This document shows, piece by piece, positions 11,034 through 29,620 of a stretch of 64,000 bases of DNA (position 1 is the first letter of the stretch; each line of letters starts with the position of its first letter). The translations under genes and the position numbers were made by a program. The notes beneath the pieces were generated by a model. It searched no databases and had not been told where the DNA came from. It saw nothing but the letters and a program-made list of their open reading frames with translations. The stretch comes from Rhizobacter sp. OV335 (GTDB lineage: Bacteria; Pseudomonadota; Gammaproteobacteria; Burkholderiales; Burkholderiaceae_C), in NCBI RefSeq assembly GCF_900142965.1, contig NZ_FRCQ01000023.1, positions 33,777 to 97,776 on the forward strand. The letters run 5' to 3'.

Positions 11034-11058
11034 CCTTCGACAGGCTCAGGGCGAACGG
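11034..11058 (-). repeat. Dispersed repeat, copy 1
   Basis: A 25-bp copy of the widespread betaproteobacterial repeat containing CCTTCGACAGGCTCAGG and ending GCGAACGG. A closely similar copy (23 of 25 bases) lies in the opposite orientation at 16970-16994. A partial copy (CCTGTCGAAGG) is at 10981-10991. The copy sits between the lacI-type gene end (11069) and the lipoprotein gene start. Confidence 0.65.
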
Positions 11059-11068
11059 ATTCTTCCGT

Positions 11069-12193
11069 TCAGCGCTTCAACTGCCGCGTCGACTCGCGTG
11101 TCACCAGCAACGGCGGCGGCAGCTCGCCCTCCGGCGCTTCCCCACGCAGCATCGCCAGCACCGCGATCGCACCGAGCTCGCCGAGCTGGTAGATCGGCTG
11201 GCGGATCGTCGTCAGCGGCGGGATCGAATACTGCGAGCCCGGCAGGTCGTCGAAGCCGACCAGGGCCACGTCGTCCGGGATGCGCAGGTTGCGCCGGTAC
11301 AGCCCGAGCGCCGCGCCATACGCCGTCTGGTCGTTGGCCGCGAAGATCGCGCTGAAGTCGATGCGCGATTCGATCAAGTGGCTCACCGCCTTCAGCCCGC
11401 TGGCCTCGTTGAAATCGCCCTGCACCACCAGCGTCGGGTCATACGCGATGCCGGCCTCCTTCAGCGCGCGGCGGTAACCCTCCTTGCGCTCGCGGGCATC
11501 GGCATGGTCGCGCGGGCCGAGGATGTGCACGATGCGCCGGTGGCCGAGCTCGATCAGGTGCCGCGTCGCCATGCGCGCGGCCTCGACGTTCGCGAAGTTC
11601 AGGCTGTACAGGCCAGGGCCCGACAGCTGGCGCCCGGTCACCACCGTCGGCACGCGCCGCGCCACCTGCATCAGCATCTCGTCGGGCAGCCGGCCGGTGA
11701 ACATGATCATGCCGTCGACACGGCGCGACAGCAGCAGGTCGACGCACTTCTTCTCGTCGGCGGCCGTCCAGTGGCCGCTCGCGAACAGCGGCATGTAGCC
11801 GGCCGCGCCCAGCACCGCCTCGATGCCGCGCAGGCCTTCGCCGTAGTACGGGCTGTCGATCGACTGCGTGACGACGCCGATGCTCAGCGTGCGCCCGCCG
11901 GCCAGCCCGCGCGCCACCGGGTTCGGCATGAAGCCCAGCGTGGCGATCGCGGCATCGACCGCCTGCTGCTTGGTGGGGCTCACCTTCGCGCTGCCGTTCA
12001 GGATGCGCGAGACGGTGCTCGACGACACGCCCGCCAGGTCGGCCACCATCTGCAGCGTCACCGACGTGTCGGTCACGGTGACCGCCGCGGCCGGCACGCG
12101 CTTGCGCACGGCCTTGGCGCCGCTGCGCGGCGTGAGCTTCGGCGCAGGCTTCGGGGTGGTCTTGCGGGGGACCTTCTTGGAGATCGCCTTCAT
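11069..12193 (-). CDS. LacI-family transcriptional regulator
   Basis: A 374-residue LacI/PurR-type regulator with a Lys/Pro-rich N-terminal extension of about 44 residues, before the helix-turn-helix at 47-67 (LQMVADLAGVSSSTVSRILNG). The periplasmic-binding-like sensor domain follows (GVVTQSIDSPYYGEGLRGIE, IGHRRIVHILGP-like HRRIVHILG, AIFAANDQTAYGA, VALVGFDD). The ATG at 12193 is chosen, although the frame is open to 12343. It is divergent from atzF with about 170 bp between them. This is the usual layout for a local regulator of the ureide-hydrolysis genes. The ligand is unknown; an allophanate or biuret pathway intermediate or a sugar are both possible. Confidence 0.9.
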   Translation of the reverse strand: MKAISKKVPRKTTPKPAPKLTPRSGAKAVRKRVPAAAVTVTDTSVTLQMVADLAGVSSSTVSRILNGSAKVSPTKQQAVDAAIATLGFMPNPVARGLAGGRTLSIGVVTQSIDSPYYGEGLRGIEAVLGAAGYMPLFASGHWTAADEKKCVDLLLSRRVDGMIMFTGRLPDEMLMQVARRVPTVVTGRQLSGPGLYSLNFANVEAARMATRHLIELGHRRIVHILGPRDHADARERKEGYRRALKEAGIAYDPTLVVQGDFNEASGLKAVSHLIESRIDFSAIFAANDQTAYGAALGLYRRNLRIPDDVALVGFDDLPGSQYSIPPLTTIRQPIYQLGELGAIAVLAMLRGEAPEGELPPPLLVTRESTRQLKR

Positions 12194-12320
12194 GCGTGGC
12201 CGTGCTGCTGTGGGGGAATCGAAAAGTGTACGTTCGTGCATCGATCCCGCGCCGCTTTGAAACACCCCCGAAGGAGCGTATCGGCACCCACGCAACATGA
12301 GGGAAAACCATGGCTCGCAA

Positions 12321-12332
12321 CTTGCATACAAG
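12321..12332. promoter_or_regulatory. CTTGCATACAAG palindrome upstream of atzF (candidate GntR operator)
   Basis: CTTG-CATA-CAAG lies 31 nt before the atzF start. It matches the CTTGTATACAAG type of site often bound by FCD-subfamily GntR regulators. A related site, CTTGTATACATG, lies before the leftward import operon at 29413-29424. The GntR gene at the end of the atzF operon is the obvious candidate to bind both. Binding is inferred. Confidence 0.5.
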
Positions 12333-12362
12333 ATCGCATTCACGATTCAGGAGCCCGACCCC

Positions 12363-14192
12363 ATGCCCCTCGAGCCACGGACCTTGCGTGAACTGCAGCA
12401 GGCGCTGCGCGAAGGCACCCTGACGGTGCGCCGCCTGATGGAGCGCGTGCTGCATGAGCGTGCACGGCACGCGGCCTCGGCCTGGATCGCCGCGCGGACC
12501 GACGCCGAGTTGCTGGCCGAAGCCGATGCCTGCGATGCCCGCGCGCGCGGCGAAGGCGCGGCGCCGTGGGAGCGACTGCCGCTGTTCGGCCTGCCGTTCG
12601 CGGTGAAGGACAACATCGACGTGGCCGGGCTGCCGACCACGGCCGCCTGCCCGGGCTTCGCGACCGGCCCGGCCGCGCGCCACGCGACCGCGGTGCAGCG
12701 GCTGGTCGATGCCGGCGCCATTCCCGTCGGCAAGACCAACCTCGACCAGTTCGCGACCGGCCTGGTCGGCACGCGCTCGCCGTACGGCGCGGTGCCGAAC
12801 CCGTTCGATGCGGCGCATGTGAGTGGCGGTTCCAGTTCGGGCTCGGCCTATGTGGTCGCGACCGGCCAGGTGCCGTTCGCGCTCGGCACCGACACAGCGG
12901 GTTCTGGCCGGGTGCCGGCCGGCTTCTGCCACATCAGCGGGCTGAAGCCGACCAAGGGCTGGCTGCCGTCGACCGGCGTGGTGCCGGCCTGCCGCAGCCT
13001 CGACTGCATCTCGGTGTTCGCATTGACCCCGGAAGACGCCTGGGCGGTCGCGAGCCAGGCCGCCGGGCCCGATCCGCAGGATCCGTTCAGCCGCACGGCG
13101 CTGCCGCCGCGGCTGCGGCTGGATGCGCTGCAGGACCTGGTGGTCGGCATGCCCGACCCGCTGGAGTTCTTCGGCGACACCCAGGCCCGCGACGCCTTCG
13201 ACGCCGCGCTGCAGCACCTGCGCGCGCGCGGCTGCAAGCTGGTGCCGGTGCCGTTCGAGCCGCTCGCGCGCGTCGCTGCGCTGCTGTACCAGGGGCCGTG
13301 GGTGGCCGAGCGCTATGCCGCGGTCGGTGCCTTCCTCGACAGCCATCCGCCCGGCGCCGACCCCACCGTCGCGGCGATCGTGCGCAGCGGCCGCGCGCCG
13401 GCCGCTCACGAGCTGTTCGACGCGCAGTACACGCTGGCCGCGGCGCAGCGGCAAGCCGCCGCGATGTGGGCGCAGGTGGCGGTGCTGGTGGTGCCGAGCG
13501 CGCCGACCCACCCGACGCAGGCCGCGCTGCAGGCCGATCCGTTCGAGCCGAACCGGCGGCTCGGCCACTACACCAACTTCGTCAACCTGCTCGACATGGC
13601 CGCGCATGCACTGCCCGGCCCGATGCGCGCTGACGGGCTGCCGGCCGGCGTGACGCTGATCGGGCCGGCGTTCAGCGATTTCGCGCTGGCCGGGCTCGCG
13701 GCCACGCTGGCGCGCGTGTTCGAACCGACCGCCGGCGTGATGCGCCAGCCGATCGGCGCCGCGCCGGTGCTCGCCGCGAGCGCACCGGCGCAGCCGCTGC
13801 GGATGGTCGTCGTCGGCGCGCACATGAGCGGGCTGGCGCTGAACTGGCAGCTGACCGAACGCGCCGGCCGGCTGCTGCGGCGCACGCACACCGCGCCGGC
13901 CTATCGCCTCTATTCGCTGACCGGCCACGCACCGACGCGACCCGCGCTGGTGCATGTGGGCCCCGAGGCGGGTCGCGCGGTCGACGTGGAGGTGTGGGAG
14001 ATCGACGCGGCGCACGGCGGCAGCTTCCTGCAGATGGTCGGCCCGCCGCTCGCGCTCGGCACGGTGGAGTTGTCCGACGGCACGCAGGAGCGCGGCTTCG
14101 TCTGCGAGCCGCGTGGCGTGGCAGCAGGCGGCAGCGCGTTCGACATCACGGCCTACGGCGGCTGGCGCGGCTTCCTCGCTTCGCTGGGTTGA
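12363..14192 (+). CDS. atzF: Allophanate hydrolase AtzF
   Basis: A 609-residue amidase-signature enzyme that hydrolyses allophanate to ammonia and CO2. The Ser-cisSer-Lys triad is intact: Lys82 in AVKDNID, Ser157 in SGGSSSGSAY, and Ser181 in TDTAGSGRVPA, with the usual 24-residue spacing. Residues about 450-609 form the extra C-terminal domain typical of AtzF (VVVGAHMSGLALNWQLTERA, AYRLYSL, GTVELSDGTQERGFVCEP, DITAYGGWRGFL), which distinguishes it from generic amidases. The ATG at 12363 has AGGAG at 12349. It is first in a five-gene operon with atzG, atzE, atzH and gntR. No urea carboxylase is present, so allophanate must come from biuret or carboxybiuret rather than urea. Confidence 0.92.
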   Translation: MPLEPRTLRELQQALREGTLTVRRLMERVLHERARHAASAWIAARTDAELLAEADACDARARGEGAAPWERLPLFGLPFAVKDNIDVAGLPTTAACPGFATGPAARHATAVQRLVDAGAIPVGKTNLDQFATGLVGTRSPYGAVPNPFDAAHVSGGSSSGSAYVVATGQVPFALGTDTAGSGRVPAGFCHISGLKPTKGWLPSTGVVPACRSLDCISVFALTPEDAWAVASQAAGPDPQDPFSRTALPPRLRLDALQDLVVGMPDPLEFFGDTQARDAFDAALQHLRARGCKLVPVPFEPLARVAALLYQGPWVAERYAAVGAFLDSHPPGADPTVAAIVRSGRAPAAHELFDAQYTLAAAQRQAAAMWAQVAVLVVPSAPTHPTQAALQADPFEPNRRLGHYTNFVNLLDMAAHALPGPMRADGLPAGVTLIGPAFSDFALAGLAATLARVFEPTAGVMRQPIGAAPVLAASAPAQPLRMVVVGAHMSGLALNWQLTERAGRLLRRTHTAPAYRLYSLTGHAPTRPALVHVGPEAGRAVDVEVWEIDAAHGGSFLQMVGPPLALGTVELSDGTQERGFVCEPRGVAAGGSAFDITAYGGWRGFLASLG

Positions 14193-14233
14193 GCACGGTC
14201 CTTGCAGCACTCCCGCGCAAGGAGGTCTCCGCC

Positions 14234-14452
14234 ATGACCGACACCGCGCCATCCGACATCCTCGATTTCGTGCGCGCCAGCGCCCGGCTGCTGGAGCTGC
14301 CGCTCGACGAGGCGCAACTCGCGCGCGTCGCGACGCACCTGGCCCGCACGCGCACGATGGTGGCGCCGCTGCGCCTGCTGCCGCTGGGCGCCGAGCTGGA
14401 GCCGGCCGAGATCTACTGCCCGGCGCCGTTTCCGGCCGAGGATCCGGCATGA
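14234..14452 (+). CDS. atzG: AtzG-like small subunit (DUF4089)
   Basis: A 72-residue protein of the DUF4089/AtzG type (LDFVRASARLLELPLDEAQL, RVATHLARTRTMVAPL, and the acidic end AEIYCPAPFP). AtzG binds the amidase AtzE and completes its active complex, sitting at the dimer interface. GGAGG at 14221 precedes ATG 14234 by 8 nt. The stop TGA overlaps the atzE ATG as ATGA, so the two subunits are translationally coupled. The oxalurate protein HpxX belongs to the same small family, so the function is assigned from the neighbours. Confidence 0.85.
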   Translation: MTDTAPSDILDFVRASARLLELPLDEAQLARVATHLARTRTMVAPLRLLPLGAELEPAEIYCPAPFPAEDPA

Positions 14453-15867
14453 CCGCGCGGCATTCGGTGCATGCAGGGGGCATGAGCACCGGCATGTCCA
14501 TCGTGCGCGCGGTGCGCAGCGGCGAGATGCTGGCCGAAGAGGCGCTCGAGCACTGCATCGCCCGCATCGAGGTCTGCGACGCGCGCGTCAACGCCTTCAC
14601 CGACGGCACCTTCGAGCGCGCGGTGCGCGAGGCGCGCGCGGTCGATGCGCAGCGCGCCCGCGGCGAGGTGCTGCCGGCGCTGGCCGGGCTGCCGTATGCG
14701 GTGAAGAACCTGTTCGACATCGAGGGCCTGACGACGCGTGCCGGCAGCAAGGTCCGCCAGGGCGAACCGCCGGCCACGGCCGACGCCGCACTGGTCGAGC
14801 GCCTGCGCGCGGCCGGCGCGGTGCTGGTCGGCGCGCTGAACATGGACGAGTTCGCGTACGGCTTCACCACCGAGAACAGCCACTACGGCCCGAGCCGCAA
14901 CCCGCGCGACCTCGCGCGCACGGCCGGCGGATCGTCCGGCGGCTGCGGCGCCGCGGTCGCGGCCGGCCAGGTGCCGGTGACGCTCGGCTCCGACACCAAC
15001 GGCTCGATCCGCGTGCCGTCGTCGCTGTGCGGCGTGTGGGGGCTGAAGCCGACCTTCGGGCGCTTGTCGCGGCGCGGCAGCTTCCCGTTCGTCGCGAGCC
15101 TCGACCACCTGGGACCGTTCGCCCGCAGCGTCGAGGACCTGGCCGCCACCTACGACGCGATGCAGGGCCCCGACGCGGCGGACCCCGGCTGCCATGCCGA
15201 ACGCGTGCAGCCGGCGCTGCAGCAGATCGGCCACCCGCTGACCGGCCTGCGCATCGGCGTGCTGGACGGCTACTTCGACGAGCACGCCGGGCCGGCGGCG
15301 CAGCGGGCGGTCGCGATCGCGGCCGAGGTGCTGCATGCGACCCGCCGCGTGCAATGGCCCGATGCCGCGCTCGCGCGCGCCGCCGCCTTCGTGACCAGCG
15401 CGGCCGAGGGCGGCGCGCTGCACCTGCCGACGCTGCGCGAGCGCGCGGCCGACTACGAGCCGCTGTCGGTCGACCGCTTCATCGCCGGCGCGCTGCAGCC
15501 GGCCGAGTGGTACGTGCGGGCGCAGCGCTTCCGGCGCCTGTACCGCGAGCGCGTCAACGCGCTGTTCGCCGACTGGGACGTGCTGCTCGCGCCGGCGACG
15601 CCGGTGCAGGCCACGCTGCTCGGTGCCGAGAGCTTCGACCTGAATGGCGTCGCGATGCCGACGCGCCCGTCGATGGGCCTGCTGACGCAGCCGGTGTCGT
15701 TCGCCGGCTGCCCGGTGGTGGCGGCGCCGCTGTGGCCGGACGGCCTGCTGAAGCTGCCGATCGGCGTGCAGGTGATCGCCGCGCCGTGGCGCGAGGACCT
15801 GGCGCTGCGCGTGGCGCGCTCGCTGGAGGCGAGCGGCGCGGCGGTGTCGCCGGTCGCCGGGATCTGA
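14449..15867 (+). CDS. atzE: 1-carboxybiuret hydrolase subunit AtzE (amidase)
   Basis: A 472-residue amidase-signature enzyme. The triad is Lys86 (YAVKNLFD), Ser162 ([11 protein letters not shown]) and Ser186 ([10 protein letters not shown]). [20 protein letters not shown] and the C-terminal [12 protein letters not shown] are typical of the AtzE/HpxY group. Known AtzE with AtzG deaminates 1-carboxybiuret to 1,3-dicarboxyurea. The start is fixed by the ATGA overlap with atzG; the frame is open far upstream but only because of atzF/atzG shadow sequence. HpxY (oxalurate) is the main alternative. The presence of atzF in the same operon and biuH nearby favours the biuret route. Confidence 0.88.
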
Positions 15868-15880
15868 GGCCTGCACCCGC

Positions 15881-16255
15881 ATGGAGATCAACCGCCCCGA
15901 TGTGCTGGCCGTGCTGACCGCGGCCTTCGAGCGCTACGAGCGCGCGCTGGTCGGCAACGACGTCGCGGTGCTCGACGAGCTGTTCTGGGACAGCCCGCAC
16001 ACGCTGCGCTACGGCGTCGGCGAGAACCTGTACGGCATCGCCGCGATCCGTGCCTTCCGCTCGGCGCGGCCGGCGACCGGCCTCGCGCGCAGCGTGCTGC
16101 GCACGCAGGTCACGACCTACGGCGAGGATTTCGCGACCACCCACATCGAGTTCCAGCGCGAGGGCGGCACGCGGCCCGGCCGGCAGACGCAGACCTGGAT
16201 GCGCACCCCTGACGGCTGGCGTGTCGTATCGGCCCATGTAAGCTTGATGGGATGA
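15881..16255 (+). CDS. atzH: AtzH-like protein (DUF3225, SnoaL-type fold)
   Basis: A 124-residue DUF3225 protein ([70 protein letters not shown]). AtzH from the cyanuric acid pathway converts 1,3-dicarboxyurea to allophanate, preventing a dead-end. The HpxZ proteins of oxalurate breakdown are homologues. It follows atzE by 13 nt, and its TGA overlaps the gntR ATG as ATGA. Its position between atzE and the regulator, with atzF upstream, supports AtzH over HpxZ. Confidence 0.85.
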
Positions 16256-16965
16256 AACCGCTGGCCACGAAGACCGCCCCGCGCGCCAACCCCCGCGAAC
16301 TGACCCGCGCCGAAGGCGCCTACCGCCGCATCAAGGCGGCGATCTTCGACTTCGTGCTGCTGCCCGGCGACGGCTTCACCGAGAGCGACATGGCCGAGCG
16401 GCTCGAGATGTCGCGCACGCCGGTGCGCGAGGCGCTGTTCCGGCTCGAGCTCGAAGGCTATGTGCAGGTGGCCTTCCGCAGCGGCTGGAGCGTGTCGCCG
16501 TTCGATTTCCGCAAGCTGGAGGAGCTGTACGACCTGCGGGTGGTGCTGGAGGCCACCGCGGTCGACCGGCTGTGCGCAGCCGAGCCGATGCCCGACCTGG
16601 GGCTGCTGAAGGCGACCTGGCTGGTGCCCGAGAAGGAGCGCAAGGCCGACACTGCCGAAGTCGCGGCGCTCGACGAGGCCTTCCATGCGACGCTGGTGTC
16701 GGCCGCCGGCAACCTGGAGATGGCGCGCGTGCATGCCGACGTGACCGATGGCATCCGCATCGTGCGCCGGCTCGATTTCACGCAGCCGCCGCGCATCAGC
16801 GCGACCTACGACGAGCACGCGAAGATCCTGAAGGCCATCCTGGCGCGGCGCGCCGACGCGGCCAAGCTGATGCTGCGCACCCACATCGAGGCGAGCAAGG
16901 CCGAGGTGCGCAAGATCACGCTGCACAAGCTGCACAGCGCGCGGCCGGTGGCCGGAGAACTGTGA
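16252..16965 (+). CDS. GntR-family (FCD) transcriptional regulator
   Basis: A 237-residue regulator with an N-terminal winged helix (residues about 20-85: [50 protein letters not shown]) and an FCD ligand domain ([46 protein letters not shown], and a final [10 protein letters not shown]). FCD regulators bind small carboxylates, often through a metal. It is the last gene of the atzF operon, joined by an ATGA overlap. Candidate sites are the related palindromes at 12321-12332 and 29413-29424. Confidence 0.92.
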
Positions 16966-16969
16966 AACG

Positions 16970-16994: not shown

Positions 16995-17061
16995 CCCCGT
17001 CACCCACTGCCGTTATGCTTGTCGGCCCCAAAACCCACGCCCACGAAGCGAAGGTGTGCCC

Positions 17062-17928: not shown

Positions 17929-18007
17929 CGCCGGCGCATGCGTCCGCGCTGTTGCGTCCGTTTCTGCATCCCGTTCGTAAGTCCCGGCACCACCCCCAAG
18001 AGGCCCC

Positions 18008-18877: not shown

Positions 18878-18893
18878 AATACCTCGCGCGACC

Positions 18894-20702: not shown

Positions 20703-21361
20703 TCGAGCGCAGCCCTCACAGCCCGCAGCGACGCCGTCCACCCGACGATCCCACCTTGCGCACGGATCATCGCCAGCGTCGCCGCCTTGAACTGCGGGAA
20801 GTACGAGCCGGTCGCCTCCTCGACCAGCAGGCATTCGTAGCCGCGGTCGTTGGCCTCGCGCATCGTCGTCTGCACGCACACCTCGGTCGTCACGCCGCCG
20901 AAGATCAGCCGCGTGATCTGCTGGTCCTGCAGAACCTCGGCCAGCCGCGTGCCGTAGAACGCGCCCTTGCCCGGCTTCGCGATCACCACGTCGCCGGGCT
21001 GGGGCATCAGCTCGGGCACGAAGCCGGCCCCCGGCTCGCCCTCGATCAGGATGCGCCCCATCGGCCCCGGGTCGCCGATGCGCAGGCTCGGCTTGCCGCG
21101 CAGCCGCTTGGCCGGCGGGCAGTCCGACAGATCCGGCCGGTGGCACTCCTGCGTGTGCACCACCAGCACGCCGATCGCGCGGCACAGCGCGACCAGCTCG
21201 GCCGCCGCCGGCACCACCGGCGCCAGCAGCGACACGTCGTTGCCGAGCGCCGCGCCGAAGCCGCCCGGTTCGATGAAATCGCGCTGCATGTCGATCATCA
21301 CCAGCGCGGTGTGCGCCGGCTCGAACTCGAACGGGCCCGGCAGGGCATCGACCTGGATCAT
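20633..21361 (-). CDS. trtA: Isochorismatase-fold cysteine hydrolase, candidate triuret hydrolase
   Basis: A 242-residue cysteine hydrolase. The triad is Asp24 (VMIDMQRDF), Lys129 ([12 protein letters not shown]) and Cys162 ([20 protein letters not shown]), with the cis-peptide loop GGVTTE. It is a paralogue of the biuret hydrolase in the same operon but differs around the active site ([11 protein letters not shown]). From memory, the nucleophile of Herbaspirillum triuret hydrolase TrtA is also Cys162. Triuret hydrolysis would give carboxybiuret, the substrate of AtzE. RutB-like or other ureide hydrolase activity is the alternative. The ATG overlaps the upstream ATPase stop as TGATG. The last 22 residues and stop are encoded by a repeat arm, so the native C-terminus is probably replaced. 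Confidence 0.7.
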
Positions 21362-22938
21362 CAATGGCTCCCGCCCATGAAGCCGCCGAGGACGTGACGG
21401 TCCGCCTGCAAGGCGTCGGCCTCGTGCACGATGCGCCCCTCGCTCATCACCGCGATGCGGTCCGACAGCGCGAGCAGCTCGTCCAGGTCCTCGCTGATCA
21501 GCAGCACCGCGCCGCCGCGGTTGCGCACGTCCATCAGCCGCTGGTGGATCTCGGCGACCGCCGCAAAGTCGAGCCCGAACACCGGGTTCGAGACGATCAG
21601 CACCTCGGCGTCGTCGCTCAGCTCGCGCGCCAGCACCGCGCGCTGCACGTTGCCGCCGCTCAGCGAACGGATCGGCGCCAGCTCGCCGCGCGTCTTGACG
21701 CCGAACTCGGCAATCAAACGGCGTGCGCGCTCGCGCAGCGCCGACGCGCGCAGCCAGCCGCCGCGCGCCGCGGGAGCGCGGTCGAAGGCGCGCAGGCCGA
21801 TGTTGTCCGAGACGCTCAGCTCGCCGACGCAGGCGTTGCGCAGCGGCTCTTCCGGCAGGCTGCGCACCTTCAGGCGCTGGTTCTGCGCGCGCGTCGCGGC
21901 GAAGCGCTCGCGCTGCTCGCCGTGGCCGACCCACACCTCGCCCGACACGCGCCGGCGCTGGCCGACCAGCGCCTCGGCGAACTCGCGCTGTCCATTGCCC
22001 GAGACGCCGGCCACGCCGACGATCTCGCCCGCATGCACGCTCAGGCTCAGCCCATTGACCGCTGCCTGCCCGCGGTCGCCGTCGACCGTCAGCGACTCGA
22101 TCGTCAACCGCGCCGCGCCGCGTTCCTGCACGGCGCGCTGCGGCGGCGCGAACTCGCGCTTCGCTTCGGCGGCCGTGTCGTCCGCCGCGCCGATCATCTC
22201 CGCTGCCAGCTGCCGCGGATCGGTCTCGGCCACGCGGTGCGCCGCCACCAGCCGCCCGCGGCGCAGCACGCTGACGTCGTCCGCATACGCAGTGACCTCG
22301 CGGAACTTGTGCGTGATCAGCACGATGCTGCAATCGCCCGCATGCGCGCGGTCGCGCAGCAGGCCCAGCACTTCGTCGGCCTCCTGCGGCGTCAGCACCG
22401 AGGTCGGTTCGTCGAGGATCAGCAGCCGCGGCCTCAGCAACAGCTGCTTCAGGATTTCGAGCTTCTGCTTCTGCCCGGCCGACAGCTGCTGCGGCGTCGC
22501 ATCGAGGTCGAGCTTGAACGGCGTGGTCTCGAGGAACGCGGTGAGTTCCTCGCGCACCCGAGGCCAGTGGATGACGGCCGGCAGCCGGCCACGCGCGAGC
22601 AGCAGGTTCTCGGCCACCGTCATGCCGGGCACCACGGTGAAGTGCTGGTAGACCATGCCGATACCGAGCTCGCGCGCGACCACCGGCGACGCGATGTCGC
22701 GCTCGCGGCCGTCGATCAGCACGCTGCCTTCTTCGGCGCGCTGCCAGCCGACGACGCACTTCACCAGCGTGCTCTTGCCGGCGCCGTTCTCGCCGAGCAG
22801 CGCATGCACGGTGCCGGGCCGCACCGCGAGCGACACGCCGTCCAGCGCGGTGAAGGCGCCGAAGCGCTTGGTGAGTTGATACGTGTCGAGCGCCAGCGCA
22901 CCGGTCGCCCGCGGCACCGGGTCCATCGGCGCGGTCAT
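21361..22938 (-). CDS. ABC importer ATPase, double NBD (BMP/nucleoside-type, NupA/YufO-like)
   Basis: A 525-residue protein with two nucleotide-binding domains in tandem. The first has Walker [10 protein letters not shown], signature [11 protein letters not shown] and Walker [12 protein letters not shown]. The second, degenerate half has [10 protein letters not shown], signature LSGGNVQRA and [12 protein letters not shown], where the Walker B Glu is replaced. This arrangement is typical of the ATPase partner of BMP-family importers. Its natural partners are the BMP protein and two permeases at the head of the same operon (26165-29317), five genes away. The start is fixed by an ATGA overlap with the upstream ATPase. 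Confidence 0.9.
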
Positions 22939-23708
22939 GCCTTCATCTCCCGCCGAAAGACTTCCAGCGTGTGCGCCTTCACGCGCACGAAGCGCTCGTC
23001 CGACACCGCCTCCGGCAGCCGCGGCCGCGGCATGTCGAAGGGCACGAACTCGGCGATGCGCGTCGGCCGGCGCGTCAGCAGCAGGATGTGGTCGGCCAGG
23101 AACACCGCGTCTTCCAGGTCGTGCGAGACGATCACCATCGTCACGCCGGTCGCGAGGTGCGCCTCCTGCAGTTTTTCGCGGATGAACAGCGTCATCTCGA
23201 AATCGAGCGCCGAGAACGGCTCGTCGAGGAACATCACCTCCGGCCGCGGCGCCAGCGCCCGCATGATGCACACCGTCTGCATCTGCCCGCCCGACAGCTC
23301 GTACGGGTAGCGCTTCAGGTCGAAGCGGATCTCGAACAGCTTCACCAGTTCGTCGACCCGCTCGCGCACCTGCGCTTCCTTCATGCCCTTGCGGCGCAGC
23401 GGGTAGGCGATGTTGTCCCAGGCGCTGATCCACGGGAACAGCGCATCGCGGTAGTTCTGGAACACGTAGCCGATGTTGGTCTGCTTCAGCGTCTTGCCGT
23501 CGAACAGGATCTCGCCGGCGTCCGGCGGGATCAGCCCGGCGATCATGTTCATCAGCGTGGACTTGCCGCAGCCGTTGGGTCCGAAGATCGACACGATCTC
23601 GCCGCGCGGCAGGTCGAGGTTGAAGTCGGTGTACAGCGGCGCGCCGGCGAACGACTTGCTCAGCCCACGGATCGTCACGTGCGGCAGGTGGAGCACCGGG
23701 CCGCTCAT
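22935..23708 (-). CDS. ABC transporter ATPase (nitrate/sulfonate/taurine type)
   Basis: A 257-residue ATPase with Walker [10 protein letters not shown], signature ELSGGQMQT, Walker [13 protein letters not shown] and switch His in [15 protein letters not shown]. Members of this SsuB/TauB group energise importers with an NMT1-type binding protein, matching the two genes upstream. The start overlaps the permease stop and the stop overlaps the next start (ATGA in both cases). Substrate probably biuret or a related ureide. Confidence 0.9.
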
Positions 23709-24475
23709 GCCTTGCCGCTCCAGTGGATCAGCTTCTTCTCGACCAGCAGGAACGCGAGGTTCAGCAGGTAGCCGAGCGCGCCGGTGATCAGGATCGAGGT
23801 GTACATGTCCTTCACGTTGAAGACCTGCTGCGCATCGATGATGCGGTGGCCGAGGCCGGTCTCGGAGCCGATGAACATCTCGGCGACGATGACGATCACC
23901 AGCGCCATCGACACCGCGCTGCGCAGCCCGACGAAGGTCTGCGCGAGGCTCTCCATCAGCATCACGTCCTTGAACACATGCCAGCGCGACACGCCCATGA
24001 TCTGCGCCGCCATCACCCGCGTCTTCTTCGCGTTCATCACGCCGTACGCGCTGTTGAACAGCACGATCAGCATCGCGCCGAAGCTCGCGATCGCGATCTT
24101 GTTGATGTCGGTGATGCCGAAGATCAGCATGAACAGCGGGATCAGCGCCGAGCTCGGCGTCGAGCGGAAGAAGTCGATCACGAACTCGACGCTGCGGTAC
24201 GCGAGCTCGGAGCTGCCGAGCAGCACGCCCAGCGGCACGCCGATCAGCACCGCGATGCCGAAGGCGGCCAGCGTGCGCCAGAGCGTGGACAGCAGGTCCG
24301 GCAGGATCGCGCCGCTCGTCACCGCACCCCACAGGTAGGCGAGCGTCTCGCCGGGCGGCGGCAGCAGCACCGGCTTGATCCACTTGGCCGAGATCACCAG
24401 CTCCCACAGGCCGAACAGCAGCAGCGGGCCGATCAGCGGCAGCAGCCTTCGGTCCATCAGTCGCGAGACGTTCAT
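23705..24475 (-). CDS. ABC transporter permease (SsuC/TauC type)
   Basis: A 256-residue inner-membrane permease with about six membrane segments (LIGPLLLFGLWELVISAKW, LAAFGIAVLIGVPLGVLLG, LIPLFMLIFGITDINKIAIA, VSMALVIVIVAEMFIGSE, ILITGALGYLLNLAFLLVEK). The EAA loop region is MAAQIMGVSRWHVFKDVMLM. It belongs with the binding protein 17 nt upstream and the ATPase overlapping its 3' end by ATGA. ATG 24475 is the only sensible start, since the open frame further upstream lies antisense in character within the binding-protein gene. Confidence 0.9.
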   Translation of the reverse strand: MNVSRLMDRRLLPLIGPLLLFGLWELVISAKWIKPVLLPPPGETLAYLWGAVTSGAILPDLLSTLWRTLAAFGIAVLIGVPLGVLLGSSELAYRSVEFVIDFFRSTPSSALIPLFMLIFGITDINKIAIASFGAMLIVLFNSAYGVMNAKKTRVMAAQIMGVSRWHVFKDVMLMESLAQTFVGLRSAVSMALVIVIVAEMFIGSETGLGHRIIDAQQVFNVKDMYTSILITGALGYLLNLAFLLVEKKLIHWSGKA

Positions 24476-24492: not shown

Positions 24493-25461
24493 TCAGGCGG
24501 TGTAGAGCAGCGGCTTCACCGGCACCGCGCGCGAGAAGATCTTGCGCTCGGTGAACACGTCGAAGAACTTCTGGAAGGCCTCGATGTCGCTCGGCTTGAA
24601 CTCGTTGTAGAGCGTGAAGCCCGACAGCGGCACCTCCTTCACCAGCGACGCGTCGATCGACGTGAAGCCGTCGAGGTGGTTGCGCGACTCCTCGGGGTTC
24701 TTGCGCACATGCTCCACCGCCTTCGCGTACGCGGCGATGTACTTCTTCGCGTCGGCCGGGCGCTCCTTCAGCAGCGTCGTGGTCACGCTGGCTGAGCCGC
24801 CGAACCACGGTGCATCGGCATCGCCGAGCACGTACTTGCTGATCACGCCGGTCTCGAGCACGCGCGTCAGGCCCTTCAGGCGGCCCGCGGTGCCGGTGGG
24901 CTCGAGCGTGTAGACCGCGTCGATCTGCCCGCCGACGAGGGCCGGTACGTGCTGGCCGACCGGCAGCTCGGTGACCTGCGGGCTCGCGACACCGTTCTTC
25001 TCGAGCATGATCTTCGCGAGCGTGACGTTCTGGATGCCGGGGCCGCTGGCGATCCGCTTGCCCTTCAGGTCGGCGAGCGACTTGATCGGGCTGTCCTTCG
25101 CGACGACGAACTCGTCGAGCACCAGCTTGTGGTTCGACGGGTTGCTGCAGATGATCTTGAAGAGGCCGGGCGAGGTGATCTCGGCCAGTGCCAGCACGGC
25201 CGACGCGGTGCCGTTGGCCGAGCCGTGGATGCGGCCGGAGATCATCGCCTCGGCGACCTGCTGGGCGCTGGAGAACTTGACGCCTTCGACATCGAGGCCG
25301 GCCTCCTTGAAGGTGCCGAGCTCGAGGCCAGCGTACAGCGGCAGGCCGCTCGCGATCGGCCAGTAGCCGATCAGGATCTTGTCGTCCGCGGCGCGGGCGA
25401 AGGAGGCCGCGCCGAGCGAGGCGGCAGCGAGGGTTTGCAGGGTGCGGCGGCGGGTGATCAT
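24493..25461 (-). CDS. NMT1/TauA-type periplasmic substrate-binding protein
   Basis: A 322-residue exported protein. The start [20 protein letters not shown] is a twin-arginine-like signal ending at FARAADD. The mature part is an NMT1/SsuA-type binding fold ([64 protein letters not shown] [11 protein letters not shown]). It is translated from an ATG overlapping the biuH stop (ATGA), with GGAG in the 3' end of biuH. Its tight coupling to biuH suggests that it captures the BiuH substrate, by inference biuret. Confidence 0.9.
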
Positions 25462-26168
25462 GGGGACTGCTCCTGGTGAATCTGGATCGCATCGATCAAT
25501 GCATTCGAATCGGCCACCGCGCCGAACACCCCGCCCTGCATCGTCACCATCTTCAGCGCCGCGAGGTGGTTGCCGAGGTCGGTCGCGGCGGTGCAGTCGG
25601 AGAGGATCAGGCACTCGTAGCCGCGGTCGTTCGCGTCGCGCATCGTGGTGTGCACGCAGACGTCGGTGGTGATGCCGGTCAGCACCAGGTTGCGGATGCC
25701 GCGGGTGCGCAGGATCAGCTCGAGGTCGGTCGCGTAGAACGAGCCCTTGCCGGGCTTGTCGATCACCGGTTCGCCGGGCAGCGGCGCGAGCTCGGGGATG
25801 ATTTCCCAGCCCGGTTCGCCGATCGTCAGGATGCGACCGCAGGGCCCGACATCGCCGATGCCGATGCCGTCGGTGCCGATCCGGCGCGAGCGCCAGCGCT
25901 TGTTGGCCGGCAGGTCGCTCAGGTCCGGGCGATGGCCTTCGCGGGTGTGGATCAGCAGGTGGCCGGCCTCGCGCATCGCGGCCATCAGGCGCTGCAGCGG
26001 CGCGATCGGCGCGCGCGTCAGGCCGATGTCGTAGCCCATCTTGTCGACATAGCCACCCTTGCCGCAGAAGTCGACCTGCATGTCGATCACGATCAGCGCG
26101 GTGTTGTCGGCGCGCAGGTCGCCGTCGAACGGCCAGCGGTAGGGATCAGCCTGCACGTAGCGGCTCAT
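25458..26168 (-). CDS. biuH: Biuret amidohydrolase BiuH
   Basis: A 236-residue isochorismatase-like cysteine hydrolase that converts biuret to allophanate and ammonia. The sequence matches the characterised Rhizobium leguminosarum enzyme through most of its length, as recalled: [98 protein letters not shown]. Catalytic Asp29, Lys138 and Cys171 align with Asp36, Lys142 and Cys175 of that enzyme. The Gln in MQGGVFG, equivalent to its substrate-binding Gln215, is also kept. The gene is coupled by ATGA overlaps to a BMP-type permease upstream and a binding protein downstream. Product allophanate would feed AtzF, encoded 11 kb away. Confidence 0.9.
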
Positions 26169-27088
26169 CGCGAGACTCCGAGCTCCGCCGGCGCGCCCTT
26201 GACCGTACGCGTCGGCGAGCAGGTCCACACCAGGATCGCGAGCGTCAGCACGTACGGCACCGCATTGAAGAGGTAGTAGCCGCTGCTGATGCCCACCGAC
26301 TGCAGCGCAGGCCCGAGCGCGCCGGCGCCGCCGAACAGCAGCGCGGCACCCAGGCAGCGCCACGGGCTCCAGCGCGCGAAGATCACCAGCGCCACCGCGA
26401 TCAGCCCCTGCCCGCTCGACAGCCCTTCGTTCCAGCTGCCGGGGTAGTGCAACGACAACGACGCACCGCCCAGCCCCGCGATGAAGCCGCCGACCACCGT
26501 GGCGGCGATGCGGATGCCGTTGACCGAGTAGCCGAGCGAGCGCGCCGCATCGCTCGAGTCGCCGGCCATGCGCAGCACCAGGCCCCAGCGCGTCGCCTTG
26601 AAGCCCCACGCGAGCAGCGCCGCGATCGCGACGCCGATCGGGAACAGCGCGTTGATCTGCAGCGCCGAGCGGATCTGCGCCGAACTGCTCCACTCGCCCA
26701 GCGCCAAGGCCGGGATCTGCGGCGCCTGCGGCTGGATCAGCGGCTTGCCGAGGTAGAACGCGAGCCCGCTGCCGAGCAGCATCAGCGCGATGCCGGTGGC
26801 GATGTCGTTGACGCGCGGCAGCGAGCACACCAGGCCGTGCAGCAGCGCGAGCGCCGCGCCCGACAGGCCGCCGACCAGCACGCCGACCCAGGCCGAGCCG
26901 CTGAGGTACGCGCCGCCGAAGCCGCTCATCGCCGAGAACACCAGCACGCCCTCGAGGCCGAGGTTGATGCGGCCGGCCTTCTCGGTGACGCATTCGCCGA
27001 GGCTGACCATCAGGAACGGCGTGCCGACACGGACCGCGCCGCCGAGCACGGCGATCAGCACGTTGAAGAAGAGTTCGGTGCTGGTCAT
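26165..27088 (-). CDS. ABC transporter permease, BMP/nucleoside type, second subunit
   Basis: A 307-residue permease of the NupC/YufQ kind. It carries the family segment [20 protein letters not shown] near the N-terminus, [20 protein letters not shown], and several hydrophobic segments to the end. It forms a pair with the permease upstream, whose stop overlaps this start (ATGA). The cognate ATPase is at 21361-22938 and the binding protein at 28178-29317. Confidence 0.88.
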
Positions 27089-28176
27089 GTGCTCACCTGT
27101 GCAGAGGCCGGCACGACGACCGGTGCCGCAGCCGGCGTCGCCCGCACGACGAACAGCTTGCCGCGCAGCGCCTCGCTCGCGAGGATCAGCAGGAACGCGA
27201 AACCCTGCAGCACCAGCACCGACGCATCGGGCAGGTCCATGCGCCGCTGCAGCAGGCTGCCGGCCGCGCCGAAGCCGCCGAACAACACCGCCACCGGCAT
27301 CACCACCCACGGGTTGTGGCGCGCGACGAAGGACACCAGGATGCCGCTGTAGCCGAGGCCGGCGATCAGTGCGGCGTTCGCGCTGGTGTGCACCGCCAGC
27401 ACCTCGATGCCGCCGGCGAGCCCGGCGCACGCGCCGCCGATCGCACAGGCGATGACGATCAGCCGCGTGCCCGGCAGGCCGACCAGCAGCGCGGCGCGCA
27501 GGTTGCCGCCGACCACGCGCGTCGCGAAGCCGGACGGCGTCTGGAACAGCCACAGGCCGAGCGCGATGCAGGCGACGATGCCGAAGGCCAGGCCCCAGTG
27601 GATGTCGCTGCCGCCGATGCCGCCGATCAGCAGCGCGTCGGCGATCGGCCGGGTCGACGGCTTGTTCAGGCTGGCCGGGTCGCGCAGCGGGCCTTCGACG
27701 AGGTGTTTGAAAAGGGCGATGGCGATGTACGCGAGCAGCAGGCTGCTGATCGTTTCGTTGACGCCGCGCCGCTGGCGCAGCACGCCGACCAGCGCGATCC
27801 AGCCCGCACCGGCCGCGCCGGCGGCGAGCAGCAGCAGCGCGCTGCCGAACGCATTGGCGGGCGGCGTGATGACGGAGGGCAAGGTCGCGCACGCGAGGCC
27901 GCCCAGCACCAGTGCGCCCTCGCCGCCGATCACGACCAGGCCGGCGCGCGCGGGGACCGCGACGCACAGCGCGGTGAGCATCAGTGGTGCCGCGCGCTGC
28001 AGCGAGTTCTGCCACGAGAACCAGTCGCCGAACGCGCCCTTGAACAGCAGCGTCCACGCGTCGACCGGGCTCTTGCCGCCGAACCACACGAAGGCACCGA
28101 ACAGCAGCAGCGCACCGCCCATCGCGAGCAGCGGCAGCGCGACCGATTCCAGCGTTTCGGCGTGGCGCGCGTTCAT
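27085..28176 (-). CDS. ABC transporter permease, BMP/nucleoside type, first subunit
   Basis: A 363-residue permease of the NupB/YufP kind, with about eight or more membrane segments ([97 protein letters not shown]). VVIGGEGAL and [11 protein letters not shown] are family hallmarks. ATG 28176 stands one base after the stop of the BMP gene, so an in-frame ATG at 28209 inside that gene is unlikely. Confidence 0.88.
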
Positions 28177-28177
28177 C

Positions 28178-29317
28178 TCAGGCGCCGGTCTTGCCGACGA
28201 CGCCTTCAACGAGGTAGTTCATTCCTTCGAGCGTGGCATCGGTCTGCTTGAACACCTTGCCCGCCTCGATGATCGTCTTGCCGGCGTTGTCCTTCAGCGG
28301 CCCCTTGAAGATGTCGAAGCTGCCCTTCAGCATCGCGGCCTTCACGTCGTCGGCCGCCTTCTTCGCCGGCGCCGACACCATCGCGCCGTATGGCGAGGGC
28401 TTCACGAAGCCTTCCTTCAACCCACCGCGCACGAAGTTCGGATGCGGCTTGCCGGTGCGCGCCGCGTCGATGATGGTCTTGTACGCGGTGATCCAGTTCC
28501 ACTCGGCGCCGGTGAGGTACGCGGCCGGCGCGAGCTTGGCCTGGCTCGCGTGGTAGCCGCAGACGAACTTGCCGCGCTTGGCGGCGGTCTCGACGATCAC
28601 CTTCGGCCCGTCGACGTGCATCGTGAACACGTCGACGCCCTGGTCGGCGAGGCTGTTGGTGGCCTCGGCCTCCTTGACCGGCATCGACCAGTCGCCGGTG
28701 AAGATCACCGTGGTCGTGATCGACGGGTCGACCGAGCGCGCGCCCATCGTGAACGCGTTGATGTTGCGCAGCACCTGCGGGATCGGCTTGGCCGCGATGA
28801 AGCCGAGCTTCTTGCTCTTGCTCATGTGGCCGGCGACGACGCCGTTCAGGTACTGGCATTCGTCGATGTAGCCGAAGAAGCTGCCGGTGTTCTTCGGGTG
28901 CTTGCCCTCGGTCCACATGCCGCCGCAATGCGCGAAGCGCACGTTCGGATTCTTGCCCGCCACCGCGAGCATGTGCGGGTCGAAGTAGCCGAACGAGGTG
29001 GGGAACAGCAGCGTCGCGCCGTCCTGCGAGATCATGCCCTGCATGGCCTTCTGCACGGCCGTGGTCTCGGGGACGTTCTCTTCCTCGACCGCCTTGATGC
29101 CGGGCAGCTTCTTGATCTCGGCCACCGCCTCGGCATGCGCCTGGTTGTAGCCGAAGTCGTCCTTCGGGCCGACGTAGATGAAGCCGACGGTGATCGGCGC
29201 CTGCGCGTTCGCGAGGCTGCCGAAGCCACCCAGCGCGAGCGCCGCGCCGGCGCCCTTCAGCACATCCCGCCGATGGAGTCCGGCCGCTGCACTCTCGTGC
29301 GTCATGTCATGCGTCAT
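28178..29317 (-). CDS. BMP-family periplasmic substrate-binding protein
   Basis: A 379-residue exported protein with a twin-arginine-type signal (HRRDVLKGAGAALALGGFGS, ending near LANAQA). The mature part is a BMP/PnrA-like binding domain (VGFIYVGPKDDFGYNQAHAE, LLFPTSFGYFDPHMLAVAG, HCGGMWTEGKHPKNTGSFFG, YLNGVVAGHMSKSKKLGF, QGVDVFTMHVDGPKVI). Similar proteins lie beside ureide and purine utilisation genes. ATG 29317 has AGGAG 7 nt upstream. It opens the nine-gene operon. Confidence 0.92.
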   Translation of the reverse strand: MTHDMTHESAAAGLHRRDVLKGAGAALALGGFGSLANAQAPITVGFIYVGPKDDFGYNQAHAEAVAEIKKLPGIKAVEEENVPETTAVQKAMQGMISQDGATLLFPTSFGYFDPHMLAVAGKNPNVRFAHCGGMWTEGKHPKNTGSFFGYIDECQYLNGVVAGHMSKSKKLGFIAAKPIPQVLRNINAFTMGARSVDPSITTTVIFTGDWSMPVKEAEATNSLADQGVDVFTMHVDGPKVIVETAAKRGKFVCGYHASQAKLAPAAYLTGAEWNWITAYKTIIDAARTGKPHPNFVRGGLKEGFVKPSPYGAMVSAPAKKAADDVKAAMLKGSFDIFKGPLKDNAGKTIIEAGKVFKQTDATLEGMNYLVEGVVGKTGA

Positions 29318-29397
29318 CTCTGCGCTCCTGTGCGTCACCGCGTGGGAGGGTTCGCAGGAGTCGTGCCCGTTCGCCAGTGCACGATCCCGATCGCCCC

Positions 29398-29427
29398 TGT
29401 TTAGAACACCTTCTTGTATACATGCAA
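29398..29427 (-). promoter_or_regulatory. Candidate promoter of the leftward importer/biuH operon
   Basis: On the minus strand TTGCAT (29427-29422) and TAAACA (29403-29398) are spaced by 18 bases, giving a plausible -35/-10 pair about 80 bp before the first ATG. The -35 overlaps the CTTGTATACATG palindrome. A repressor bound there would block the promoter. Assigned by eye only. Confidence 0.4.
29413..29424. promoter_or_regulatory. CTTGTATACATG palindrome (candidate GntR operator)
   Basis: CTTGTATACATG differs by one base from the perfect CTTGTATACAAG palindrome and closely matches the site before atzF (CTTGCATACAAG). It overlaps the candidate -35 element of the leftward operon. No other copy was seen at the other promoters I inspected. 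Together the two sites suggest co-regulation of the import operon and the atz operon. Confidence 0.55.
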
Positions 29428-29620
29428 CGGGCGTGCCAGCCGGAAGGCGTGGGGCAGAGCGGGGAGAGACGGTGGATGCGTACGGTGCGAGGATCCCAAA
29501 CGGGGGCGCGAGGCGGAGGCCGAGCGCCAAGCGCGGGCGGCGTGGCACCAAAAGCGACCAGCCTGAAAGCCCGGACCGCGGCCGGCCGATGGCCAGCTGC
29601 CAGTCCGCAGCGACAACCCG

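Follow-up and report, generated by a model that had tools for sequence, protein, structure and literature searches.

The stretch of DNA analyzed here, called the window, comprises 64,000 nt of contig NZ_FRCQ01000023.1 from Rhizobacter sp. OV335. It encodes BiuH, a TrtA-like hydrolase, AtzF, AtzG, AtzE, AtzH, two ABC importers, and a GntR regulator. The initial annotation described positions 11034 to 29430 as a complete biuret and probable triuret uptake-and-degradation locus. The enzymes it named were all present and intact, but the atzF half and the trtA/biuH half are convergent, and three unrelated genes (17056-20285) lie between them. The Pfam domains agreed with the two importers and the GntR and LacI genes that it listed. 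No Rfam family scored above its gathering score between positions 8000 and 33000. The features are as follows.

11069..12193, minus strand: lacI-type regulator, divergent from atzF (Pfam LacI and periplasmic-binding domains)
12321..12332, unstranded: palindrome CTTGCATACAAG, putative GntR operator 5' of atzF (1 mismatch to CTTGTATACAAG)
12363..14192, plus strand: atzF, allophanate hydrolase (NCBIfam TIGR02713; PDB 4GYR)
14234..14452, plus strand: atzG, AtzE partner subunit (PDB 6C62_C, AtzG)
14449..15867, plus strand: atzE, predicted 1-carboxybiuret hydrolase (PDB 6C62; TIGR02715)
15881..16255, plus strand: atzH, predicted decarboxylating enzyme of the DUF3225/AtzH family, with Arg66 (PF11533; PDB 6BJT; residues)
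16252..16965, plus strand: GntR/FCD regulator, proposed for the locus (Pfam GntR and FCD)
20633..21361, minus strand: trtA, predicted triuret hydrolase (PDB 6XIX; key residues)
21361..22938, minus strand: ATPase of the Bmp-type ABC importer (Pfam ABC_tran, two stretches)
22935..23708, minus strand: ssuB-like ATPase of the second importer (Pfam ABC_tran)
23705..24475, minus strand: ssuC-like permease (Pfam BPD_transp_1)
24493..25461, minus strand: ssuA/NMT1-like binding protein (Pfam NMT1; NCBIfam SsuA_fam below cut-off)
25458..26168, minus strand: biuH, biuret hydrolase (NCBIfam NF050097 equivalog; PDB 6AZO)
26165..27088, minus strand: permease 2 of the Bmp-type importer (Pfam BPD_transp_2)
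27085..28176, minus strand: permease 1 of the Bmp-type importer (Pfam BPD_transp_2)
28178..29317, minus strand: bmpA, binding protein (Pfam Bmp; PDB 6PI5, 219.7 bits)
29413..29424, unstranded: palindrome CTTGTATACATG, putative GntR operator 5' of bmpA (1 mismatch)

The two hydrolases match BiuH and TrtA

BiuH scored above the cut-off of its NCBIfam equivalog NF050097 (414.8 versus 370 bits), and its best PDB match was 6AZO (381.7 bits). The triad annotated for it, Asp29, Lys138, and Cys171, was verified, with an Asp preceding the Cys in a TDVC motif. The second isochorismatase-fold hydrolase had been noted for its Cys162, which is indeed present, and the top PDB match of this protein was TrtA 6XIX (E 1.3e-90, 306.6 bits), compared to 208.8 bits for the best BiuH (6XJM), 197.5 bits for 6AZO, and 100.3 bits for RutB. 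It is 64% identical to Herbaspirillum TrtA and retains 14 of 14 TrtA positions: the triad D24, K129, and C162 together with F29, F35, N41, E72, K132, A134, T158, E160, Y187, Q202, and I205. It is also TrtA-like at all six positions that were mutated from TrtA to the BiuH consensus in PMC7948467. TrtA-BiuH-AtzF operons have already been published. From its close similarity to the characterized enzyme we infer that the second hydrolase is the triuret hydrolase TrtA, which would act on triuret and hardly on biuret. In its C-terminal tail, the trtA reading frame enters an inverted repeat.

Specificity within the isochorismatase fold is hard to infer from sequence, and excerpts of PMC9800807 give identities of up to 65% between guanylurea hydrolases and other family members. 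The two enzymes could thus act on other ureides, such as guanylurea or ureidoacrylate, making the locus a general ureide scavenger. We consider this highly improbable given the BiuH equivalog score, the TrtA-like state of the six mutated positions, and the low RutB scores (about 100 bits). A grouping of the hydrolases with RutB had been set beforehand as the outcome that would count against the annotation, and the comparison with characterized enzymes went the other way by a wide score margin.

AtzF and the AtzG-AtzE-AtzH group

The products of atzF, atzG, atzE, and atzH were all found intact by NCBIfam, PDB matches, and key residues, as had been annotated. AtzF scored 715.1 bits against the TIGR02713 equivalog (cut-off 511) and 535 bits against PDB 4GYR, and contains amidase (PF01425) and AH_C (PF21986) domains with the amidase Lys and Ser motifs. 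AtzG matched AtzG chain 6C62_C with an E value of 1.1e-10. AtzE scored 688 bits against TIGR02715 and, in the PDB search, 654 bits against Pseudomonas ADP AtzE (6C62) versus 227 bits for the best GatA. The atzG gene overlaps the start of atzE by 4 bases, and 13 bases separate atzE from atzH. As an AtzE-family amidase with an adjacent AtzG, the pair is predicted to have carboxybiuret hydrolase activity. AtzH scored 200.7 bits against PF11533, matched PDB 6BJT (AtzH), and keeps Tyr22, Arg46, Arg63, Arg66, and Arg73; its gene is the sole AtzH-family gene detected in this genome. Membership in the DUF3225/AtzH family, Tyr22 and Arg46, and linkage to AtzE point to 1,3-dicarboxyurea decarboxylase as its predicted activity.

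In the HpxXYZ oxalurate route, a terminal ureide is removed and decarboxylation follows, as for AtzGEH. AtzGEH might be an oxalurate module that merely lies beside an ordinary triuret/biuret operon, and some scores lean that way. The NCBIfam equivalog names AtzH as HpxZ (201.4 versus a cut-off of 135), AtzG resembles HpxX weakly (21.1, missing the cut-off of 70), and the PDB chain nearest to AtzH is the uncharacterized 2RCD (169 bits), ahead of strain ADP AtzH (155.5 bits). The HpxZ label alone is not decisive, since the Atz and Hpx proteins are homologous, and it would not discriminate if AtzH proteins of the ADP type pass that model too. Pfam detected no HpxW (oxamate hydrolase) domain in the 20 open reading frames between 11069 and 31599; in place of HpxW, the locus carries AtzF and TrtA/BiuH. 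The 654-bit match of AtzE to ADP AtzE, the co-occurrence of these genes with TrtA, the palindrome shared with the TrtA half, and the presence of AtzD in two TrtA-free loci (all described below) make an oxalurate module quite unlikely.

Co-occurrence and gene order in relatives

In a sample of 150 genomes of the family, TrtA was found in 41, AtzE in 41, and both in 32, and an AtzH-family gene was present in all 41 genomes with TrtA versus 10 of the 109 others; these genomes are kin and not independent, although cleaner as a sample than the sets of loci. The TrtA and AtzE genes lie within 18.3 kb on one contig in 27 of the 32 genomes and on separate contigs of drafts in the other 5. Among 11 genomes of the genus (this one included), 10 have both TrtA and AtzH and one has neither. 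Conversely, AtzE occurs in nine family genomes that lack TrtA, one of them with AtzD and eight with neither. Four of these eight (G419, G475, G491, and G534) are at least 99% complete, so AtzGEH there must use another substrate or source.

Loci were taken from an order sample of 399 genomes, 58 with a hit at 1e-40, which was not used for co-occurrence statistics. A class sample, in which the AtzH family exceeded its cut-off in 6 of 369 genomes, served solely to find outgroups. One set of loci comprises the 80 top-scoring of at least 534 candidates and is nonrandom. Some contigs recur in more than one set (e.g., L051/L084, L113/L192, L123/L176, and L099/L165), which means that counts of loci are not independent. 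One collinear run, AtzF-SsuACB-(AtzG)-AtzE-AtzH-BmpA-P1-P2-BiuH-BmpATP-TrtA-GntR, was found in L150, L151, L154, L156, L157, L172, L174, and L177. TrtA loci were of three kinds: those with AtzE and AtzH, those in which a divergent relative of AtzH occupies the expected place of TrtB, and those with neither. Neither AtzE nor an AtzH-family gene occurred in the fetched stretch of 35 of the first 113 TrtA loci, some of which are cut by a contig end and others not. L166 was scored as AtzE free only because its partial AtzE falls under the 400-bit threshold. AtzG was followed by single-sequence hits only and is not counted across loci; an iterated AtzG HMM grew from 79 to 355 hits, which we took to mean that the profile had drifted into overlapping reading frames.

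Arg66 distinguishes AtzE-linked AtzH from TrtB-type proteins

AtzH and the TrtB-type proteins form one family with common Tyr22, Arg46, Arg63, Arg73, Gln106, and Gln108; the name TrtB for the AtzH-like gene of Herbaspirillum is itself taken from its position. Arg66 of the AtzH pocket was present in 80 of 82 AtzE-linked AtzH proteins, compared to 0 of 42 TrtB-type proteins. L112 and L115 have AtzE but Val66, and L155 has Arg66 in a genome with no AtzE hit at 1e-90. In G171 (L012), L109, and L116, an AtzH-clade protein stands at a TrtA locus whose fetched stretch showed no AtzE (in the G171 genome, none at 1e-90), and in all three Arg66 is changed to Leu and Leu53 to Gln or His, as in most TrtB-type proteins. 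In the accessible text of PMC6219798, Arg66Ala and Arg66Lys are not among the five AtzH variants reported as impaired, so this residue could be a marker without being essential.

These shared residues, and the persistence of an AtzH-clade protein at the three AtzE-free loci, would also fit an AtzH that converts carboxybiuret directly to biuret as TrtB does, with BiuH completing the route and AtzEG acting on another substrate. This we consider unlikely: the three proteins have changed at both Arg66 and Leu53, whereas the AtzH of the window retains both, and AtzE would lack a clear reason to accompany TrtA in 32 of 41 genomes. The window AtzH also clustered with AtzE-linked proteins and, in grouping and in having Arg66, differs from what defines the TrtB type. 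The TrtB-type proteins fell into four clades rather than a single supported one. Trees were built with FastTree (local supports) after removal of identical sequences and of rows shorter than 95 (AtzH) or 330 (AtzE) residues; the AtzH tree was midpoint rooted and the AtzE tree GatA rooted, and several inner nodes of both had support below 0.5.

A palindrome precedes both halves

The palindrome CTTGTATACAAG precedes both halves in the window and stands before atzF or bmpA in many relatives. With up to 1 mismatch, it occurs only twice in the 64 kb, at 12321 and 29413. The 3.63 Mb of locus sequence, which includes the window, contained 74 such sites, versus 1.5 expected (the mean of two first-order shuffles), and 69 of the 74 lie before AtzF or BmpA. 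At up to 1 mismatch, a site was found before 32 of 80 AtzF genes, 32 of 110 BmpA genes, and 2 of 1,088 copies of 11 other genes. The GntR gene is present in many TrtA loci, and the palindrome is absent from 35 of 85 loci carrying it. The GntR protein probably controls both halves through CTTGTATACAAG before atzF and bmpA.

The LacI gene had also been placed within the pathway, which the relatives did not bear out. Among the fetched loci, a strong match beside atzF occurred only in the window and the genus relatives G510 and G907, with a weak match in L083; the stretches of other genus genomes end short of the far side of atzF. L181, whose stretch extends past atzF, has none. The LacI-type regulator therefore probably lies outside the pathway.

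A predicted triuret and biuret pathway

The weakest link in the annotated pathway is the membership of AtzGEH; co-occurrence, gene order, the shared promoter palindrome, and residue covariation all favored it, and AtzGEH probably handles the first product of triuret, carboxybiuret. We estimate a probability of about 0.78 that the locus encodes a pathway for the nitrogen of triuret and biuret, with AtzG-AtzE-AtzH in place of the decarboxylase TrtB and with GntR governing both halves. The closed pathway without cyanuric acid hydrolase that had been annotated is the best reading; its enzymes were identified, and a genome search for AtzD (PF09663) gave 0 hits here, while matching four of 13 genomes (G474, G893, G904, and G909).

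We infer each reaction in this organism, with transport and regulation, as follows. Judging by family and position, the substrates would enter the cell through the two ABC importers. TrtA would convert triuret to carboxybiuret and ammonia, AtzEG would convert carboxybiuret to 1,3-dicarboxyurea with release of a second ammonia, AtzH would decarboxylate this, yielding allophanate, from which AtzF would set free the remaining two ammonias. BiuH would act both on imported biuret and on the biuret that arises by spontaneous decarboxylation of carboxybiuret, so that the TrtA and BiuH branches would join at allophanate. GntR, encoded 3' of atzH, would act on both halves through the palindrome. We found no report in the searchable literature that ties AtzG-AtzE-AtzH to triuret. 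The AtzGEH route would add a second enzymatic branch to the triuret route, with Arg66 and the operator as testable handles, and give a natural home to AtzGEH, whose role beyond the cyanuric acid operon is left open in the accessible part of PMC6219798.

Relation to known systems and to the ADP operon

The Herbaspirillum TrtA-TrtB-BiuH-AtzF operon (PMC7948467; L068 and L069) shares with the window TrtA, BiuH, AtzF, the Bmp-type and Ssu-type importers, and GntR, and AtzD is absent from its fetched stretches as it is from the window. Its AtzH-family gene is divergent and lacks Arg66, and AtzE is absent from the stretch, whereas the window has AtzG-AtzE-AtzH and a split, convergent layout. The atzDGEHF cyanuric acid operon of Pseudomonas sp. 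ADP (PMC6219798) shares AtzG, AtzE, AtzH, and AtzF. In the sections of the literature available on it, however, ADP makes carboxybiuret via AtzD and is reported to be unable to degrade biuret, whereas TrtA and BiuH are present in the window and AtzD is missing. Excerpts of PMC6219798 also describe betaproteobacterial atzF and atzGEH clusters (Rhizobacter, Leptothrix, Methylibium, Variovorax, and Rhodoferax) with ABC transporters and "amidase enzymes," which is the same cluster; that 2018 account predates the TrtA report and gives the substrate as "nitrogenous compounds."

L167 and L197, two loci that have AtzGEH but lack TrtA, both carry AtzD, the other producer of carboxybiuret. In the trees, AtzE and AtzH of strain ADP are nested within groups of relatives linked to TrtA; the clade around ADP AtzE is diverse, and most of its members are TrtA linked. 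This suggests that the pathway for cyanuric acid, a herbicide by-product, likely borrowed AtzGEH from triuret loci. The position of ADP AtzE contrasts with an idea cited in the accessible text of PMC12625717, that AtzEG evolved from GatCA owing to s-triazine herbicides. We lean slightly toward a broader reading, in which AtzG-AtzE-AtzH would be the native Burkholderiales triuret cassette for carboxybiuret, interchangeable with TrtB; AtzE and the Arg66 of its AtzH-family partner would be lost or gained together, and this would set the partner to a dicarboxylate versus a monocarboxylate substrate; one GntR regulon would unite the pathway via CTTGTATACAAG, also where the operon is split; and the ADP operon would be AtzD placed before an older cassette, with no recent herbicide-era evolution of AtzEG. 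Such a reading bears on the source of the textbook herbicide degradation operon. The bmpA product is itself related to a protein named "atrazine periplasmic binding protein" (6PI5; 219.7 bits in the PDB search).

The predicted triuret and biuret locus and its enzymes

The window genome (6.9 Mb, 72 contigs) carries the locus as two convergent halves with three genes between them:

12363-16965, + strand: atzF-atzG-atzE-atzH-gntR
17056-20285: three pathway-unrelated genes (one with no Pfam hit; Tll0287-HAMP; Ser/Thr protein kinase, by Pfam)
29317 down to 20633, - strand: bmpA-permease-permease-biuH-ssuA-ssuC-ssuB-bmpATPase-trtA

Several adjacent genes overlapped by four bases, an operon-like arrangement. 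Profile, PDB, and residue comparisons confirmed the anatomy described in the initial annotation, with the named enzymes and importers present, and its reading of a closed triuret/biuret pathway held as far as sequence can show. The proposed BiuH passed the curated equivalog cut-off for biuret hydrolase. The second isochorismatase-fold hydrolase fell under that cut-off (245.6 versus 370) and was indeed a match to triuret hydrolase (TrtA), with 64% identity to the Herbaspirillum enzyme. It was TrtA-like at 14 of 14 positions checked (six specificity and eight catalytic or binding), including all of positions 35, 41, 134, 160, 187, and 205, at which, according to the available text of PMC7948467, TrtA consensus residues were exchanged for those of BiuH. 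The TDVC motif of BiuH was replaced by TEVC at the corresponding place in TrtA. For AtzE, AtzG, AtzH, and AtzF, the best or near-best solved relatives were characterized Atz proteins or allophanate hydrolases, and BmpA, the first importer's binding protein, was closest to 6PI5, an "atrazine periplasmic binding protein."

The TrtA reading frame is 242 amino acids long; among the 120 homologues listed, most were approximately 215 to 230 and a few reached 246. At the end of trtA (window 20293-20715) there is an inverted repeat whose arms measure 56, 45, and 26 bases, and the final 20 or so TrtA residues are read from within it.

TrtA co-occurs with AtzE and AtzH

TrtA, BiuH, AtzF, and the importers are ordinary, known parts; the new parts are the proposed link of AtzGEH to triuret, a putative switch at Arg66 of AtzH, a putative operator in front of both halves, and where the module of Pseudomonas sp. 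ADP likely came from. According to the available text of PMC7948467, AtzEG of strain ADP hydrolyses carboxybiuret, the TrtA product, and AtzF-AtzGEH clusters, Rhizobacter included, are described in the accessible part of PMC6219798 with no substrate given. In the open-licence literature, covered mostly by titles and abstracts, we found no report that assigns AtzGEH to triuret and none of the palindromic operator described below.

We sampled 150 genomes from 141 genera of the family, scoring TrtA at 279 bits or more, AtzE at E values of 1e-90 or less, and the AtzH family above its cut-off. TrtA and AtzE were each present in 41 genomes and the AtzH family in 51, and an AtzH-family gene accompanied TrtA in 41 of 41 genomes versus 10 of the 109 without TrtA. 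AtzE and TrtA occurred together in 32 genomes, TrtA alone in 9, AtzE alone in 9, and neither in 100, giving a Fisher odds ratio of 39.5 with relatedness ignored. The two genes lay at most 18.3 kb apart on one contig in 27 of the 32 genomes and on separate draft contigs in the other 5. Matches of only BiuH-like strength were present in five family genomes (G429, G438, G455, G464, and G512), of which G438 alone had an AtzH-family gene. Both TrtA and AtzH were present in 10 of the 11 genus genomes, nine of which had them on a single contig with approximately 5 to 23 kb in between; the remaining genome (G906) had neither. Eight family loci formed a single collinear run, AtzF-SsuACB-(AtzG)-AtzE-AtzH-BmpA-P1-P2-BiuH-BmpATPase-TrtA-GntR, with AtzG detected in five.

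Kinds of TrtA locus

Two Herbaspirillum loci (L068 and L069) were ordered AtzF-SsuA-SsuC-SsuB-BmpA-P1-P2-BiuH-BmpATPase-TrtA-X-GntR, where X, the sole gene called between TrtA and GntR, encodes a divergent AtzH-family protein (110 to 113 bits). Because PMC7948467, in its available text, reports a decarboxylase gene, trtB, co-occurring with TrtA, X is very likely TrtB. When genes were scored within the fetched stretch, the first 113 TrtA loci (TrtA of at least 270 bits) comprised 36 with AtzE and AtzH, 2 with AtzE only, 40 in which AtzE was missing but the AtzH family was represented, and 35 with neither. Among all fetched loci, window included and some overlapping, the corresponding TrtA loci numbered 63 with both, 2 with AtzE only, and 48 with the AtzH family only. 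Two AtzE-AtzH loci without TrtA carried AtzD, the cyanuric acid hydrolase gene (L167 and L197). Neither TrtA nor AtzD was in the stretch for 6 AtzH-only loci and 20 AtzE-AtzH loci; of the latter, five were genus loci with TrtA elsewhere in the genome, four came from family genomes in which a different contig holds TrtA, three (L029, L033, and L038) had a more distant TrtA-like hydrolase, and eight were left without any such explanation.

The hydrolases of L019 to L039 formed a further TrtA-like class, with 52 to 59% identity to window TrtA and BiuH absent from the stretch; AtzE and AtzH were in the same stretch in L029, L033, and L038. Some near-complete genomes had AtzE and AtzH but neither TrtA nor AtzD (L159, L163, and L182, within AtzF-SsuACB-AtzE-AtzH-GntR runs; G419, G475, G491, and G534, the last with the two genes on separate contigs); there, AtzE and AtzH may serve another substrate or another source of carboxybiuret. 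In some TrtA-BiuH loci (L098, L108, L118, L131, L135, and the Nitrospira loci L106 and L139), AtzE and the AtzH family were both missing from the stretch; there, carboxybiuret would decarboxylate by itself or via some further enzyme. TrtA and an AtzD-like gene shared a locus in L090, L198, L095, L085, L141, L166, L012, L116, and L136, which thus have two possible carboxybiuret producers.

Arg66 distinguishes AtzE-linked AtzH

We aligned 136 AtzH-family sequences: 82 AtzE-linked, 42 TrtB-type (in four AtzE-free clades), 9 others, the window protein, and two PDB chains. Tyr22, Arg46, Arg63, Arg73, Gln106, and Gln108 (strain ADP numbering) were invariant in the AtzE-linked and TrtB-type groups. 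The column most divergent between them, chosen post hoc from approximately 124, was residue 66, which was Arg in 80 of the 82 AtzE-linked proteins and the window and in 0 of the 42 TrtB-type proteins. The available text of PMC6219798 lists Arg66 in an arginine-rich pocket around a docked dicarboxylate; Arg66Ala and Arg66Lys are absent from the variants reported there as impaired. An arginine there could pair with a second carboxylate, in keeping with 1,3-dicarboxyurea, which has two of them, as the substrate; carboxybiuret would not call for it.

Three TrtA loci of one clade within the AtzH clade (L012, L109, and L116) had no AtzE in the stretch and had lost Arg66, and their Leu53 was changed to Gln or His, as in most TrtB-type proteins; the paired change looks like one reversion. 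No AtzE match was found in G171, the genome of L012; for L109 and L116, whose AtzH genes are close to where the fetched stretch begins, the absence of AtzE holds for the stretch alone. For four other AtzH-clade loci that had Arg66 but no neighbouring AtzE (L186, L160, L158, and L179), AtzE was elsewhere in the genome, and a fifth with Arg66 (L072) was cut by a contig end. The exceptions were L112 and L115, AtzE-containing TrtA loci with Val66, and L155, which had Arg66 though G171 had no AtzE match. In L112 and L115 the AtzH-family protein is approximately 5 kb away.

Where the cyanuric acid operon may have come from

In a GatA-rooted AtzE tree of 88 rows, ADP AtzE was nested in a clade with 31 members (support, 1.0). 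Of these, 20, window included, had TrtA in the fetched stretch, and another five were genus loci whose TrtA lies elsewhere. The sister of ADP AtzE was L167 (support, 0.97), in which AtzD lies directly upstream of AtzG, and ADP was also paired with L167 in the AtzH tree (support, 0.928). Some internal nodes are weakly supported, and the reading is confined to this sample, for which the simplest history has AtzD joining a pre-existing triuret-type cassette.

A palindrome shared by both promoters

A near-perfect palindrome is common to both window promoters:

CTTGCATACAAG: 30 bases before atzF
CTTGTATACATG: 95 bases before bmpA

In the whole 64 kb, no other site came within one mismatch of CTTGTATACAAG. 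One more, at 20626 in the inverted repeat that follows trtA, deviates at two positions; when up to two mismatches are allowed, the expected number is 0.16. Allowing one mismatch at most, we counted 74 sites versus 1.5 expected in 3.63 Mb of locus sequence (window included), 35 of them before AtzF and 34 before BmpA. Such a site was upstream of AtzF in 32 of 80 cases and of BmpA in 32 of 110, versus 2 of 1,088 for 11 other genes. Both promoters carried it in the window, L055, L059, L149, L166, L172, L181, G510, and G907; where AtzF heads one long operon (L151, L154, and L157), the site was before AtzF and absent before BmpA. It was present in 50 of 85 loci with a GntR gene versus 12 of 55 without; for 4 of these 12, all from the genus, the GntR gene falls beyond the fetched region. 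We infer that GntR binds this putative operator, probably uniting the two halves in one regulon. Because 35 loci with a GntR gene had no palindrome, other lineages probably use another site.

An apparent mosaic locus in the window sublineage

The window SsuACB genes sit between biuH and the Bmp ATPase gene. Outside the genus, the closest relatives of this importer (SsuA, 534 to 567 bits) belonged to TrtB-type loci with SsuACB at the same place, one of which (L134) is on a contig that ends before the TrtB-type gene position; other genus members had a different SsuACB copy, beside AtzG, with SsuA at approximately 350 to 420 bits. Because of this match and the different copy kept by other genus members, the window sublineage seems to be a mosaic that combines importer genes of a TrtB-type locus with an AtzGEH cassette.
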